This document shows, piece by piece, positions 49,564-56,967 of a DNA stretch of 64,000 bases; position 1 is the first letter of the stretch; each line of letters begins with the position of its first letter. Below the pieces are notes generated by a model that saw nothing but the letters and a program-made list of their open reading frames with translations, was not told the DNA's origin and did not search any database. Origin of the DNA: Coriobacteriales bacterium OH1046 (GTDB taxonomy: Bacteria > Actinomycetota > Coriobacteriia > Coriobacteriales > Atopobiaceae); NCBI GenBank assembly GCA_004010535.1, contig RQYE01000002.1, positions 186,001 to 250,000 of the forward strand, read 5' to 3'. The translations under genes were made by a program, and so were the position numbers.

Positions 49564-50406
49564 ATGGCAGTGAAGCACCTCAAGCCAACGAGCCCCGGCC
49601 GTCGTTGGCAGACGGTCTCCGATTTCGCGGAGATCACGACGGACAAGCCCGAGAAGTCGCTTCTCGAGCCCCTGCCCAAGAAGGCGGGCCGCAACAACAA
49701 CGGCCGCATCACCACCCGTCACCAGGGCGGCGGCCACAAGCGCCAGTACCGCAAGATCGATTTCAAGCGCACCCATGATGACGTCCCGGCCAAGGTCGCT
49801 ACCATCGAGTACGACCCCAACCGCAGCGCCCGCATCGCGCTCCTGCACTACGCAGACGGTTTCAAGGCCTATATCCTCGCTCCCGAGGGTCTCAAGGTCG
49901 GCGATACCCTCTACTCCGGCGCCTCCGGTGTCGACATCAAGCCCGGCAATGCCATGCCCCTCTCCGAGATCCCCGTCGGCACCCTCGTGCACGCCGTGGA
50001 GTTCCAGCCCGGCAAGGGAGCGGCCCTCGCGCGTTCCGCCGGCACCTCGGTCCAGCTCATGGGCAAGGACAACGGCTATGCCGTCCTGCGCCTCCCCAGC
50101 TCCGAGCTCCGCCGCATCCTGCTCACCTGCCGTGCAACGGTGGGCGAGGTAGGCAATGCCGATCACGCCAACATCGTCGTCGGCAAGGCCGGGCGCAGCC
50201 GCTGGGCAGGCGTCCGCCCCACCGTCCGCGGCACGGTCATGAACCCGGTCGACCACCCGCATGGCGGCGGCGAGGGCAAGAACCACACCTCCGGCCGTCC
50301 TTCCGTCACCCCGTGGGGCATCCCGACCAAGGGCAAGAAGACCCGCGATCCCAAGAAGGCGTCCAACCACCTCATCATCCGTCGTCGTAAGACGAAGACC
50401 AAGTAG
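49564..50406 (+). CDS. rplB: Ribosomal protein L2
   Basis: 280 residues; [19 protein letters not shown] is the conserved L2 motif with the key histidine. Required for subunit joining. A 143-base gap separates it from rplW, longer than other gaps in the operon, with no gene seen in it. Confidence 0.98.
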
Positions 50407-50436
50407 TCGGAACACGAGTGAGTGGAGAAAGATAGC

Positions 50437-50697
50437 ATGAGCAGAAGTCTCAAGAAGGGCCCGTTCGTGGAGACTCGCCTCCTCGCGCGTGTCACCGCAC
50501 AGAACGAGGCCGGCACCAAGGGGGTCATCAAGACCTGGTCGCGTTCCTCGACCATCTATCCCGAGATGGTCGGCCACACCATCGCCGTCCACGACGGCCG
50601 CAAGCATGTTCCCGTATACGTTACCGAGTCCATGGTCGGTCACAAGCTGGGCGAGTTCGCACCCACCCGCACCTTCCGCGGCCACAAGGCGAAGTAG
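50437..50697 (+). CDS. rpsS: Ribosomal protein S19
   Basis: 86 residues from the ATG at 50437 ([19 protein letters not shown]); an ATG 15 bases upstream lacks homology. [17 protein letters not shown]-type C-terminus. Binds 16S rRNA with S13. Confidence 0.97.
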
Positions 50698-50711
50698 GGA
50701 GGTAGATCCGC

Positions 50712-51062
50712 ATGGCAAACAGCAATGAGGTCAAGGCCACAGCCAAATACGTGCGCACAGCCCCGCGCAAGGCCCGCATGGTCGTCGATATGATCCGCAA
50801 CAAGTCCGTCGCCCAGGCGCTCGAGATCCTCCAATTCTCCAACCGTGCCGTCGCGGGCGACGTCGCCAAGGTCGTGCGTTCCGCAGTCGCCAACGCCGAG
50901 AACAACAACGGCATGCGCGGCGAGAACCTCGTCATCAAGGCCTGCTTCGTGGACGAAGGCCCAACGCTGAAGCGCATCCGTCCCCGCGCGAAGGGTTCCG
51001 CGAGCCGCATCAACAAGCGTATGAGCCACATCACCGTCATCGTCGCACCGAAGGAGGCGTAA
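50712..51062 (+). CDS. rplV: Ribosomal protein L22
   Basis: 116 residues; ARMVVDMIRNKSVAQALEIL and the tunnel-loop region (RGENLVIKACFVDEGPTLKR) are present. Its hairpin lines the exit tunnel. AGGGAGGT precedes the start. Confidence 0.97.
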   Translation: MANSNEVKATAKYVRTAPRKARMVVDMIRNKSVAQALEILQFSNRAVAGDVAKVVRSAVANAENNNGMRGENLVIKACFVDEGPTLKRIRPRAKGSASRINKRMSHITVIVAPKEA

Positions 51063-51069
51063 AGAAGCT

Positions 51070-51783
51070 ATGGGCCAGAAGGTACATCCTACCGGTTTCC
51101 GCCTCGGCACCACCGAGAACTGGCGTTCCCGCTGGTACGCCGAGAACAAGAAGTATGCCGCCAGAGTCGGCTCCGATCTCGCCATCCGCGCATTCCTCGA
51201 GAAGCGCCTCAGCAACGCCGCGCTCTCCCGCGTCGAGATCGACCGTGCCGGCGACAAGATCACCGTCAGCATCTACACCGCCCGCCCCGGCGTCGTCATC
51301 GGCAAGAAGGGCGCCGAGATCGACACCCTCCGCTCCGACTTGGAGAAGGTCGCCGGTGTCGAGAGGGGTATGGTTGCCGTGGACGTCATCGAGGTCAAGC
51401 GCCCCGAGCTCGACGCCACGCTCGTCGCCCGCTCCATCGCCGATCAGCTCGAGGGTCGCATCGCCTTCCGCCGTGCCATGCGCAAGGCAGTGCAGACCGC
51501 CCGCAAGTCCGGCGCCAAGGGCATCCGCATCCAGTGCTCCGGTCGCTTGAACGGCGCCGAGATGGGCCGTCGCGAGTGGTACCGCGAGGGTCGCGTACCC
51601 CTGCACACGCTGCGTGCCGTCATCGATTACGGCGAGGCCGTCGCCTCCACCACCATGGGCGCCTGCGGCGTCAAGGTGTGGATCTACCACGGCGAGAAGC
51701 TCCCCGGCCAGGCTGCCCCCAAGCCCGCGCTCGAGGGCTCCGCGCGTCCCCGCCGCCCGCGTAACGAGAGGAGGGGCCGCTAA
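51070..51783 (+). CDS. rpsC: Ribosomal protein S3
   Basis: 237 residues. [13 protein letters not shown] opens the protein, a KH domain with [11 protein letters not shown] follows, then the C-terminal S3 domain ([19 protein letters not shown]). Part of the mRNA entry helicase site. Its stop overlaps the rplP start. Confidence 0.98.
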
Positions 51784-52208
51784 TGCTCGCACCCAAACGC
51801 GTTCTGCACCGTAAGGTCCAGCGTGGCTCCATGAAGGGTCAGGCAAAAGGCAACACCGTGCTGCATCATGGCAGCTACGGCATCCAAGCCCTCGAGGCCC
51901 ACTGGATCACCAACCGCCAGATCGAGGCATGCCGTATCGCCATGACGCGTTATATGAAGCGTGGCGGTAAGGTCTGGATCACCATCTTCCCGGACAAGCC
52001 CATCACCAAGAAGCCCGCCGAGACCCGCATGGGCTCCGGTAAGGGTAATCCCGAGGAGTGGGTGGCCGTCGTCAAGCCCGGCCGCATCATGTTCGAGATC
52101 GATGGCGTGTCCGATGAGGTTGCTCGCGAGGCCCTCCGTCTTGCCCAGCACAAGCTTCCCATCAAGACCAAGATCGTCTCCCGCGCCGATCAGGACGGGG
52201 AGGAGTAA
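51783..52208 (+). CDS. rplP: Ribosomal protein L16
   Basis: 141 residues; [15 protein letters not shown] and [20 protein letters not shown] are characteristic. Contacts A-site tRNA. Begins in the TAATG overlap with rpsC. Confidence 0.98.
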
Positions 52209-52210
52209 CC

Positions 52211-52426
52211 ATGAAATATGCTGAGATCGCCAAGCTCACCGATGATGAGCTGGCCAAGAAGCTGGAGGAGGGCCGCGCGGAGCTGTTCAACCTCCGTTTC
52301 CAGATGGCCACGAGCCAGCTTGATAACACGGCCCGCGTGAAGATCGTCAAACGCGATATCGCGCGCGTCCAGACCGAGATGCGTACCCGTCAGATCGCAG
52401 CGGATAAAGCCGCTGCCCAAGAATAG
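52211..52426 (+). CDS. rpmC: Ribosomal protein L29
   Basis: 71 residues, two helices ([20 protein letters not shown] and [20 protein letters not shown]). Located at the tunnel exit beside L23. GGGGAGGAG precedes the start, two bases after rplP. Confidence 0.96.
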
Positions 52427-52443
52427 AGCCGGGAGAGATTGAC

Positions 52444-52710
52444 ATGGCTGAAAACGAGACCAGGAACGCTCGAAAGGTCCGCACCGGCGTCGTCGTCTCC
52501 CTCTCCGGCGACAAGACGATCACGGTCGAGATCACCTATCGAAAGCGTCACCCCAAGTACAGCAAGATGATGACTATCCGCAAGAAGCTCCACGCGCATG
52601 ACGAGAAAAACGATGCCGGTCTCGGCGATACCGTCCGTGTCATGGAGACCCGTCCGCTTTCGAAGACCAAGCGCTGGCGTTTGGCTGAGATCGTGGAACG
52701 CGCCAAGTAA
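52444..52710 (+). CDS. rpsQ: Ribosomal protein S17
   Basis: 88 residues; [20 protein letters not shown] and [17 protein letters not shown] are the OB-fold signature of S17. Early 30S assembly protein. Confidence 0.97.
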
Positions 52711-52724
52711 AGGAGGAGTGCCCC

Positions 52725-53093
52725 ATGATTCAGATGGAGACCATGCTCAATGTGGCCGACAACAGCGGCGCGAGGCGCGTGAAGTGCATCAAGGTCATCG
52801 GCGGCTCCAAGCGCCGGTATGCCGGCCTCGGCGACGTGATCATCTGCGCCGTCCAAGAGGCAACGCCCGGTGCCGCCGTCAAGAAGGGCGATATCGTGCG
52901 CTGCGTCATCGTGCGCACCGCCAAGGAGTCCCGTCGCAAGGACGGCAGCTACATCAAGTTCGATCAGAACGCCTGCGTGCTGGTCAACAAGGATGGCGAG
53001 CCCCGCGGCACCCGCATCTTCGGGCCCGTCGCCCGCGAGCTGCGCGACCGCAAGTACATGAAGATCGTCTCGCTCGCGCCCGAGACGCTGTAG
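52725..53093 (+). CDS. rplN: Ribosomal protein L14
   Basis: 122 residues, exactly the usual length; [19 protein letters not shown] and [20 protein letters not shown]. Contacts S12 region and RsfS. AAAGGAGGAG precedes the start. Confidence 0.98.
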
Positions 53094-53107
53094 GAGGAGA
53101 CGAGATT

Positions 53108-53422
53108 ATGCCTAAGATGAACGTCAAGAAGGGCGATACCGTCGAGGTCCTCTCCGGCAAGGACAAGGGCAAGCAGGGTCTGGTCCTGCGCGCCTTCCCC
53201 GAGGAGGGCAGGGTCCTCGTCGAGGGCGTGGCCATGGTCAAGAAGGCCACGCGCCCCAATCAGGTGAACCAGCAGGGGGGTATCGTCGAGCAGCCTGCCA
53301 AGATCGACGTCTCGAACGTCATGCTCGTGTGCCCGACGTGCGGCGAGGCCACCCGTGTCGGCCACAGCGGCGTCGGCACCGACAAGAAGCGCGTCTGCAA
53401 GAAGTGCGGTGCCGAGTTTTAA
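53108..53422 (+). CDS. rplX: Ribosomal protein L24
   Basis: 104 residues from the ATG at 53108 ([20 protein letters not shown]) with a KOW motif and a C-terminal CPTC...CKKC pair that could bind zinc. Initiator of 50S assembly. It is the last gene of the cluster here: rplE, rpsN, rpsH and rplF, which normally follow, are absent and a terminator comes next. Confidence 0.97.
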
Positions 53423-53860: not shown

Positions 53861-55117
53861 TTACAGGCCCATCGCCTGCAGGATGAACATCAGGACCGTG
53901 AAGATGATCACGGCGATGACGATGCACCATGTGAGCGCGTTCCATATGCGGCCGTTGGCGTAGACGCCCATAATGTGTTTGTCGCTCGCGATGCCGATCA
54001 TGAACACGAGTAGCACGGGCAACAGCAGGCCGTTGATGACCTGCGCTATCATCATGATGCCGAAGAGGTCGACATCGGGGATGATGACGATGCCCGCTGA
54101 GATCACGACGATGGCCGTGATGAGGATGCGGTACGTGGGCGCTTCGGACCAGGTCCGGTCGCTGCCCCGTTCCCAGCCGAAAGCCTCGCAGATGGCGTTG
54201 GCGGTGATGCCGGGCAGCACGCAGGCAGCGAGGAAGGACGCGCCAGCGAGACCCGCACCGAAAAGGATCTCCGCATAGTCGCCTGCAAGGGGTGCCAAAG
54301 CGCGTGCGGCGTCCTCGGCTCCCTCCACATTGACGCCGGCACCGTGGAGCACGGCCCCTGTGGTGAGGATGATGAACCAGCTGATGGCGCTTGCCACCAC
54401 GGCACCCGTCACGGTATCAATGCGCTGGTAGGGCAGGTCCTCCTCGCGGGCGTTCTTCTCGACCACGTTGGATTGGGCGAGGAAGATCATCCAGGGCGCG
54501 ATGGTGGTGCCCACGTTGGCCACGAGCAGCGAGAAGTACCGGGGATCCTCCGTGAAGCGCGGGATCAGGGTCGCGTGGAGCGCGGCGCCCCAATCGGGGC
54601 CGACGAGCACGCCCGCGATGACATAGGTCACGAAGATGCAGCTTATGGCGAGCAGGATCTTCTCGATGCGCCGATACGAGCCGCTCATGGCGAGCAGCCA
54701 GATGGCGAAGGCGGCTATGGGGATGGAGAGGTAGGCGGGCACGCCGAAGAGCCCGAGCGCAGAGGCGATCCCGGCGAACTCGGAAAGGGTGACGGTGGTG
54801 TTCGAGACGAGCAGGGCGAGCATGGCGAGAGCCGACAGCCTCACCCCGAACTGCTCGCGTATGAGCGACGCGAAGCCCTTGCCCGTGACGCAGCCCATGC
54901 GCGCCGCCGTTTCTTGGGCGACGATGAGCAGAAAGCACATGACGGGCACCGTCCACAGCTGCGCGAATCCGAAAAGCGCGCCCGCATTGGAGTAGGTGGC
55001 CACGCCGCCCGCGTCGGCACCGGCGAGCGCGGCGACCATGCCCGGGCCCATAGCCGCTAGGACGCGGCGGAGCGTGAGCTTGGGACGGGCTGTCGGTTCT
55101 CCTTTTCCTCCTGCCAT
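53861..55117 (-). CDS. Nramp-related magnesium transporter (NRMT type)
   Basis: 418 residues with about 11 membrane helices in the Nramp (SLC11) fold. The TM1 metal motif, DPGN in manganese/iron transporters, is DAGG here (Asp35 to Gly38, in AGADAGGVATYSNAG). The TM6 motif MPH is APW (207-209, in VGTTIAPWM). Loss of the soft Met ligand and of Asn is what marks the Nramp-related Mg transporters described from Eggerthella. The gene starts two bases after an MgtE-like gene on the same strand, supporting a role in Mg2+ uptake. I therefore do not call it mntH. Confidence 0.85.
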   Translation of the reverse strand: MAGGKGEPTARPKLTLRRVLAAMGPGMVAALAGADAGGVATYSNAGALFGFAQLWTVPVMCFLLIVAQETAARMGCVTGKGFASLIREQFGVRLSALAMLALLVSNTTVTLSEFAGIASALGLFGVPAYLSIPIAAFAIWLLAMSGSYRRIEKILLAISCIFVTYVIAGVLVGPDWGAALHATLIPRFTEDPRYFSLLVANVGTTIAPWMIFLAQSNVVEKNAREEDLPYQRIDTVTGAVVASAISWFIILTTGAVLHGAGVNVEGAEDAARALAPLAGDYAEILFGAGLAGASFLAACVLPGITANAICEAFGWERGSDRTWSEAPTYRILITAIVVISAGIVIIPDVDLFGIMMIAQVINGLLLPVLLVFMIGIASDKHIMGVYANGRIWNALTWCIVIAVIIFTVLMFILQAMGL

Positions 55118-55119
55118 GG

Positions 55120-56967
55120 CTACACCAGGATGATGCCGGGACCGGTGATGGTTGCCGCTACGAGCGCGAAGGTCGCCAAGGCTATGCCCATCGCCACGAG
55201 CGAGAGGACGTATCCCGACGTCTCCTCGTTGCGGCGGTCCCGATAGCGGAGGATCGCGAGATAGATGGGGCTGAGGACGAACGACGCGATGGTTGAGATC
55301 GCCGCCCCGCTGAATCCGGCGAGCAGGGCGCGCACAAGCTCCGCGCCGTCCGCATCGGCGAAGACGACGGAGTTGAACCCTGATACGATGAGGAAGACGA
55401 TGGCACCGAAGATCACCCCCAAGCCGATCGATTTGATGGCGAAGCCCAGCATGGAGGGGGAGTCCTCGTCATCGGAATCGTTCTCGAGGAAGAAGTTGGT
55501 CACATAGCTCACGGAGTCATCGGCGAGGATGAGCGCGATCGGGAGGGCGGAGCTGGCGAGGAGGGTGTTCACGAGCGGCACGCTCCCGCCCGAGACGCCC
55601 GCCATGATGGCCACGCCCACGATCCAGAAGAAGAACCACAGCTCGCGGCGGAGAAGCCAGAGCAGGCTGTGACTGCCCTCGCCGGTGCTGCTGTTGGAGC
55701 GACCCGCACCGGCGATCTGCAGGTCCTCGGCGTGCTCCTCCTCCAGGACATCGAGGGCATCGTCGACGGTCACGATACCGAGCAGCTTGCCCTCGTCGTC
55801 CACAACGGGCAGGGCGAGCAGGTTGTACTTAGATATGGACTCGGCGACGTCCTCCTGGTCGTCCTCGGGGCTGGCCGTCACGAGGTCGACGGCGGCGATA
55901 TCGGCGAGCCGTGCGGAGGGCTCGTTCACCAGCAGCGCGTTGAGGGTCACGGCACCGGAGAGCCGCCCGTCCTCATCGACGAGGTAGAGGTAGCGGACGG
56001 TCTCGAAGCTCTCCTCGAGTCCCCGGAGGCGCTCGACGGCGTCGGCAACGCTGCCGGCCTCGGGAAGGCTCACGGCCTCGGAGGTCATGATGCGGCCCGC
56101 CGTCCCGTCGCGGTAGCCGAGCAGCTGGCGTATGGCGGCGGCGTCCTCGACGCCCATGATGCGCAGGAGCTTCTCGGCCTTCTCGTACGAGAGCTCGCCC
56201 ACGAGATCGGCGGCGTCGTCAGGATCCATGGCGGAGAGCATGCGGGACGCCTCGGCCTCGGAGAGATCGCCCATGATCTCGGCGGCCTTGTCCTCCTCGA
56301 GCTCCGCCATCGCATCCGCGCGCTGCTCGTCGTCGAGTTGGGCGAATACCCGGCCGCGCAGACGCGGGTCGAGCTGCTCGATGATGTCCGCGACATCCGC
56401 CGGGTGCATGTCATCGAGGGTTTTGTGCGAGACCGAGAGCTTGACGTTGGAGAGGTCGCGTTCCACGAGGTCCATGTAGCTCCACGCGATGATGCGCTCG
56501 GGGATGGGCTTGCCGAAGACGCGGCCGATCCTGGTGGCGATCCTCTCCAATGCGGGCGAGATCGAACGCAGGATGCCGCGAGCGCCCACCTCGGCGCCGA
56601 GCAGGCGGAGCTGCGTGGAGCTGGTATCGGAGAGCTTGAGGTCGTTCACGCGCACGACGCGCATGCCGCGCGTATCGACGATCTGCTTGTTCAGAATGTC
56701 GCGGGCGAGCAGGACCTCGTCGGGTTGCAGGTACGAGAAGCGGACGTCGGTGGCCACGACCCCGAGGCGGATTTCATCCTCGCCGAAGGATTCGACGTAT
56801 TTGCGCCAGCTGATCATGAACGGGGTCTTGCCGGGACCCGTGAATGCGAGACTCGTCACGCGGGGGAAGACCTCGCCTGTGGCGATGCCGAGGTCGGAAA
56901 CGGCCCCGAGCTTCTCGCCCGAGGCATCGAGTACGGGATTTCCCAGAAGTTGGGAGAGGTAGATCAT
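55120..56967 (-). CDS. MgtE-like protein with PRC-barrel N-terminus and atypical membrane domain
   Basis: 615 residues. PRC-barrel-like segments occupy about 1-160 (YLSQLLGNPVLDASGEKLG). An MgtE N-terminal helical domain follows (185-280, HPADVADIIEQLDPRLRGRV), then a CBS pair (about 285-410) and four or five helices from about 450. The cytosolic part is the Mg-sensing module of MgtE. The membrane part lacks the GNxGxQ-like pore signature of MgtE channels and opens WLLRRELWFFFWIVGVAIMA. It may thus be a Mg sensor or gate for the adjacent Nramp-type carrier rather than a channel; this is inference. AAGGAG precedes the start on the minus strand. Confidence 0.85.
   Translation of the reverse strand: MIYLSQLLGNPVLDASGEKLGAVSDLGIATGEVFPRVTSLAFTGPGKTPFMISWRKYVESFGEDEIRLGVVATDVRFSYLQPDEVLLARDILNKQIVDTRGMRVVRVNDLKLSDTSSTQLRLLGAEVGARGILRSISPALERIATRIGRVFGKPIPERIIAWSYMDLVERDLSNVKLSVSHKTLDDMHPADVADIIEQLDPRLRGRVFAQLDDEQRADAMAELEEDKAAEIMGDLSEAEASRMLSAMDPDDAADLVGELSYEKAEKLLRIMGVEDAAAIRQLLGYRDGTAGRIMTSEAVSLPEAGSVADAVERLRGLEESFETVRYLYLVDEDGRLSGAVTLNALLVNEPSARLADIAAVDLVTASPEDDQEDVAESISKYNLLALPVVDDEGKLLGIVTVDDALDVLEEEHAEDLQIAGAGRSNSSTGEGSHSLLWLLRRELWFFFWIVGVAIMAGVSGGSVPLVNTLLASSALPIALILADDSVSYVTNFFLENDSDDEDSPSMLGFAIKSIGLGVIFGAIVFLIVSGFNSVVFADADGAELVRALLAGFSGAAISTIASFVLSPIYLAILRYRDRRNEETSGYVLSLVAMGIALATFALVAATITGPGIILV

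Follow-up and report, generated by a model that had tools for sequence, protein, structure and literature searches.

A 64,000-nucleotide stretch of the genome of Coriobacteriales bacterium OH1046 (contig RQYE01000002.1, positions 186,001 to 250,000; hereafter the window, with positions counted from its first letter) encodes, as two tandem minus-strand genes, a homologue of the MgtE Mg2+ channel with a dead pore and a Nramp-related Mg2+ transporter (NRMT). We consider it probable that the MgtE homologue is a Mg2+-sensing regulatory subunit that restrains the NRMT when cytosolic Mg2+ is high, because the parts of the MgtE brake are present and the pore is absent. The features that bear on this proposal are listed here.

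53861-55117, minus strand: NRMT, 418 amino acids (PF01566, E 7e-87; PDB 7qia, EleNRMT, E 4e-144)
55004-55015, minus strand: DAGG, residues 35-38, the NRMT DxxG motif in the unwound part of transmembrane segment 1 (TM1; motif definition, PMC8806188)
54491-54508, minus strand: TTIAPW, residues 204-209, the NRMT TxxA motif in the unwound part of TM6 (PMC8806188)
55120-56967, minus strand: dead-pore MgtE homologue, the proposed Mg2+-sensing partner, 615 amino acids
56773-56967, minus strand: PRC-barrel domain, residues 1-65 (PF05239, E 6e-10)
56107-56409, minus strand: MgtE_N domain, residues 187-287 (PF03448, E 8e-26)
55729-56094, minus strand: CBS pair, residues 292-413 (PF00571, E 1e-20; fold match)
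55714-55767, minus strand: plug-helix equivalent, residues 401-418, with E411, E414 and D415 retained (alignment to Thermus thermophilus MgtE, TtMgtE; helix in the model)
55141-55680, minus strand: degenerate MgtE membrane domain, residues 430-609 (hhalign; confident model matching MgtE)
55504-55524, minus strand: ADDSVSY, residues 482-488, at the position of GGNxGxQ (TtMgtE 327-333; alignment)
55189-55191, minus strand: M593, at the position of the TtMgtE selectivity-filter Asp432 (alignment)

The carboxy-terminal part of the partner is, by profile comparison, a degenerate homologue of the MgtE membrane domain over its full length. The MgtE pore domain PF01769 gives no Pfam match in the window partner even at E≤10, and the TIGR00400 score is below the cut-off; weak PF01769 matches occur at the position of the membrane domain in about 20 relatives (E 1e-7 to 1e-3), six of them above the curated cut-off. 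The partner tail can be aligned with MgtE by eye, and a profile-profile comparison with hhalign of 79 partner tails against 14 true MgtE tails gave Prob 98 and E 1.2e-13 over 193 columns, which rules out that the domain is unrelated to MgtE. Neither of the controls, a reversed MgtE and a segment of NRMT, gave a match. The match persisted at E 6.6e-11 with the plug region removed, and reached E 1.4e-15 with all pseudo-MgtE groups pooled; the wider set of tails is needed for a strong match, as the profile of the window family alone yields Prob 17 and E 0.0015.

Structure prediction is consistent with this homology. An AlphaFold2 model of the isolated membrane domain has a predicted local distance difference test score (pLDDT) of 92.6 and a predicted template modelling score of 0.87, and the seven best Foldseek matches to it are all MgtE chains (E 0.02-0.6). 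VIA-align superposes the model on the MgtE membrane domain (4u9l) with Z 11.1 and a root-mean-square deviation of 4.5 over 163 residues, but this Z ties with that of an unrelated helical complex, and the fold match alone is therefore not decisive. In the whole-chain model, which has low confidence at residues 77-127 and 157-183, residues 182-610 match full-length MgtE. The membrane domain is also under constraint, with ratios of nonsynonymous to synonymous substitution of 0.07-0.36 in the close pairs shown and 0.15 between the window and its relative L160. The loop between helices 2 and 3 (window 55440-55490, residues ~493-503) carries an acidic cluster (E495, D497, DDED) that is conserved in the window family and was absent from the true MgtEs used for comparison; it lies on the side predicted to be cytosolic.

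The pore itself has been lost. The GGNxGxQ motif is gone from every pseudo-MgtE group, and retention of the filter Asp is 0% in the three profile groups. Thus the first-pass annotation, which had been made from the sequence of the window, was right that the partner lacks the MgtE channel signature, whereas the membrane domain that carries this change proves homologous to the whole of that of MgtE and aligns with it throughout, although it is degenerate and its pore residues are gone. This is, in part, one of the two outcomes that the first-pass annotation had named as refuting its proposal. An ordinary MgtE is ruled out, since every pore residue tested has been lost. One could instead suppose a working, re-tuned channel or transporter with a charged residue in place of the GGN turn, which conducts another ion or acts in parallel to the NRMT; the purifying selection on an MgtE-like membrane fold, and the D or E found at the N329 column in most groups, would suit such a protein. 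However, the replacements at the lost positions depend on the clade (the f3 family has Arg at the N329 column in 13/13), and the f2 and f7 lineages have dropped the membrane domain while the gene still adjoins a transporter. We regard a working channel as quite unlikely.

The Mg2+-sensing residues are, in contrast to those of the pore, selectively retained. We scored eleven cytosolic Mg2+-site positions of TtMgtE, among them D214, E216, E255, E258 and D259, which we take to be Mg2+-site positions in MgtE structures. The other six are E59, D91, D95, D226, D247 and D250, with site names from PMC5882242. The share of acidic residues at these eleven positions is 87% in the window family and 89%, 97%, 91% and 89% in the other main membrane-bearing groups, compared to 93% in true MgtEs, while 36 other acidic columns are only 44-57% acidic, with 45-57% in the NRMT-linked membrane-bearing groups. 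The window partner is identical to TtMgtE at 9 of the 11 positions in the alignment, and the remaining two are E59, which is replaced by D218, and D226, replaced by N382. Among the NRMT-linked forms without a membrane domain, D214, E258 and D259 (the last outside f2) are largely lost, while D91, D95, D247 and D250, which bridge the N and CBS domains, are kept. Loss of plug-side acids together with the membrane domain is what is expected if the plug helix still acts on the pseudo-pore where one is present. Compared to the MgtE channel of T. thermophilus (PDB 2zy9), the partner shares the N domain, CBS pair, plug helix, membrane fold and Mg2+-site acids, but has lost all tested pore residues and has an extra N-terminal PRC domain.

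The carrier is, by its sequence, a member of the NRMT subfamily, based on its Nramp domain, its nearest structure and its binding-site signature. Its closest solved relative is EleNRMT from Eggerthella lenta (the next best match has E 9e-27), with which it aligns without gaps over residues 16-418 and from which it shows no notable difference, and its DAGG and TTIAPW match the DxxG and TxxA/T motifs that mark NRMTs (PMC8806188). Clostridium acetobutylicum Ca_c0685 belongs to the same subfamily, the NrmT/NRMT clade of SLC11. The structure of EleNRMT has been solved, and the protein, studied apart from its partner gene, transports Mg2+ without proton coupling, as a uniporter that is active without the partner (Ramanadane et al. 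2022, PMC8806188). By analogy the window carrier may be likewise uncoupled, a property demonstrated for EleNRMT only. The first-pass description of a Nramp-type carrier with DAGG and APW motifs, preceded at two bases by a protein with PRC, MgtE_N and CBS domains, was accurate: the gap is 2 bp, and the partner stop precedes the carrier ATG.

Linkage of the two genes is widespread. In a survey of 149 genomes of the class Coriobacteriia, 114 of 145 places with an MgtE_N domain lie on the same strand as, and within 5 kb of, a Nramp gene, 113 of them upstream of it, so that the two families are clearly not rarely linked, as they would be under the other refuting outcome named in the first-pass annotation. 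The other 31 places comprise 22 true MgtEs with a strong PF01769 match and 9 without PF01769; the latter are members of the f6 and f7 families, whose genomes yielded no Nramp, and fragments at the ends of contigs. The gap is -8 to 18 bp in 70 of 101 measurable pairs (starts were assigned automatically). When genome contigs were scanned independently with an NRMT profile, the partner was present at 80/80 NRMT loci, and the co-occurrence that the first-pass annotation proposed to check is borne out. The linked carriers of the class that we read have the TM1 motif D..G, while the four unlinked Nramps that we read carry other motifs. The f2 family has a second kind of Nramp, which bears GPGT and TTIVPY motifs and adjoins a LamB/YcsF-like gene (L130:2899-4179, minus strand; L131:2866-4167, minus strand). 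The paired set of carriers and partners holds 165 pairs over 1033 columns, with an effective number of 75, which is too few for contact inference.

Might two independent, non-interacting genes simply be regulated together by Mg2+? The M-box Mg2+ riboswitch, found upstream of the operon in 21/23 deeper Coriobacteriia loci and in 2/8 other loci of the phylum, would account for joint regulation, and nine other actinobacterial genomes keep the two genes apart: there the membrane-bearing partner is unlinked, and all nine, which are those searched, have a DAGG/TTIAPW NRMT elsewhere. We nevertheless consider mere co-regulation very unlikely, as gene order is near-invariant and spacing is tight in most genomes, also where no M-box was found (11 loci from the order to which the window belongs gave none), and by itself a channel with a dead pore would serve no obvious purpose. 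In other actinobacterial families (loci L305, L306, L307, L310 and L315-L323), the pseudo-MgtE precedes a D-Ala-D-Ala carboxypeptidase gene and a likely phosphoribosyltransferase gene; the NRMT has a separate location, where in several genomes its neighbor is a small protein matching the PRC part.

A tree of the cytosolic part groups all membrane-bearing partners with the short f2 and f7 forms (99/95) and separates this clade from the true MgtEs (96/94), from which we infer a single origin of the partner with two later losses of the membrane domain. The short forms of f2, an Eggerthellaceae-like sister family, nest within the clade beside f1 and f3, and thus loss is the simplest account of their missing membrane domain. 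The partner clade likewise includes the f7 forms, and in the two f7 genomes that were found the sensor directly follows an MgtA-type ATPase: in these genomes, where a Nramp was not found, a PRC-MgtE_N-CBS protein without a membrane domain lies directly 3' of the P-type ATPase gene (L125:2620-6275, minus strand; L126:1-2070, plus strand). Short PRC-MgtE_N-CBS proteins without a membrane domain are also present in large-genome actinobacteria (L288-L304), mostly without an NRMT beside them, and CorA-like and Mrp-like genes are seemingly nearby in some.

Forms without a membrane domain also bear on whether the partner, while sensing Mg2+, affects how the carrier is expressed, stabilized or assembled (as a chaperone, in anchoring or through proteolysis) rather than its gating. 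Their existence fits such a role, as do the presence of a PRC domain and the start of the carrier gene, before which no Shine-Dalgarno-like site was seen by eye (window 55100-55140) and whose translation is probably coupled to the partner stop. However, NRMTs can be expressed and are active in transport when the partner is absent, and the sensor residues are specifically kept; we judge an effect on carrier production or stability unlikely.

Several observations weigh against a Mg2+-sensing subunit that restrains the NRMT. Genomes of the f6 family hold the membrane-bearing form, and no Nramp was found in them (their assemblies are 62-94% complete). The f2 partner has no membrane domain, which is therefore unnecessary there. 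In the window partner the Mg5-site residue Asp226 is Asn, and the M-box family RF00380 is not matched in the window at E≤1. The ATP site of MgtE (PMC5529423) is mostly lost, only part of it being kept. Finally, coexpression of the partner of the Acidobacterium capsulatum transporter gave no better rescue, and that transporter moved mainly Mn2+ (PMC4072509); the unimproved rescue weighs less, because an inhibitory subunit is not expected to improve rescue. The first-pass suggestion of a sensor subunit is favored on the other side by the linkage, the kept cytosolic Mg2+ sites, the M-boxes in relatives and the absent pore residues. Also in its favor are the full-length homology to MgtE and the constraint on the membrane domain, the retention of plug-side acids with that domain, the NRMT present elsewhere in all nine searched genomes with an unlinked partner, and the sensor adjoining MgtA in the f7 lineage; a brake is plausible, too, since NRMTs act as uncoupled uniporters in the absence of the partner. 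In the f6 loci (L120, L121, L122, L123 and L124), the pseudo-MgtE has a membrane domain where it is complete and, where its neighbors are visible, adjoins a 5-formyltetrahydrofolate cyclo-ligase gene or purE/purD genes.

Both the basic pairing and its probable function are already in the literature, the first as an observation and the second as a speculation. Shin et al. (2014), who defined NrmT, noted that most members adjoin a gene specifically homologous to the N-terminal cytoplasmic domain of MgtE, found this neighbor dispensable for transport and speculated about cytoplasmic feedback regulation (PMC4072509), and the combination, which the first-pass annotation did not know as characterized, is thus not unknown. 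Their ancillary gene, like the window partner, has an MgtE-type cytosolic domain and adjoins an NrmT; the window partner adds a PRC domain and a complete, pore-dead membrane domain of 180 residues. No later study of the partner was found in the literature searched. Four points are new as far as we could find: the full-length MgtE architecture with a dead pore, the sensor sites that were selectively retained, the one origin followed by two losses, and the relative linked to MgtA.

In the window, a plus-strand ribosomal protein gene cluster (49564-53422) converges on the NRMT operon. The window genome also encodes an MgtA-type ATPase and CorA, and no PF01769 match was found in it.

We propose that the pair consists of an uncoupled Mg2+ carrier and a regulatory subunit derived from a full MgtE channel, which would keep the Mg2+ switch formed by the N domain, the CBS domain and the plug helix while its own pore is dead. 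Rising cytosolic Mg2+ would bridge the N and CBS domains and pull the plug helix, as in MgtE, and the membrane domain with its pseudo-pore would relay this change to the adjoining NRMT, slowing Mg2+ entry rather than closing a pore of its own. Complex formation, Mg2+ binding, and the sign and route of regulation are all presumed in this scheme. An NRMT, as a uniporter without proton coupling, would need a brake when Mg2+ is plentiful (as we infer from PMC8806188).

If correct, this proposal would supply the function of the ancillary gene, a question that Shin et al. (2014) left open, would explain how an uncoupled Mg2+ uniporter avoids overloading the cell, and would provide an example of a channel fold that came to serve an unrelated transporter as a subunit. 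The question is directly testable, since for the carrier both a structure and an assay already exist. That this gut-type actinobacterium and nearly all of its relatives pair an NRMT with an MgtE relative in which the Mg2+-sensing half is kept and every tested pore residue is lost suggests that a decayed channel was turned into the Mg2+-controlled regulator of the carrier. More tentatively, the dead channel could have become a portable Mg2+-sensing regulatory subunit for structurally unrelated Mg2+ importers, mostly the LeuT-fold NRMT and in one lineage the P-type MgtA, with the pseudo-pore relaying the signal within the membrane.
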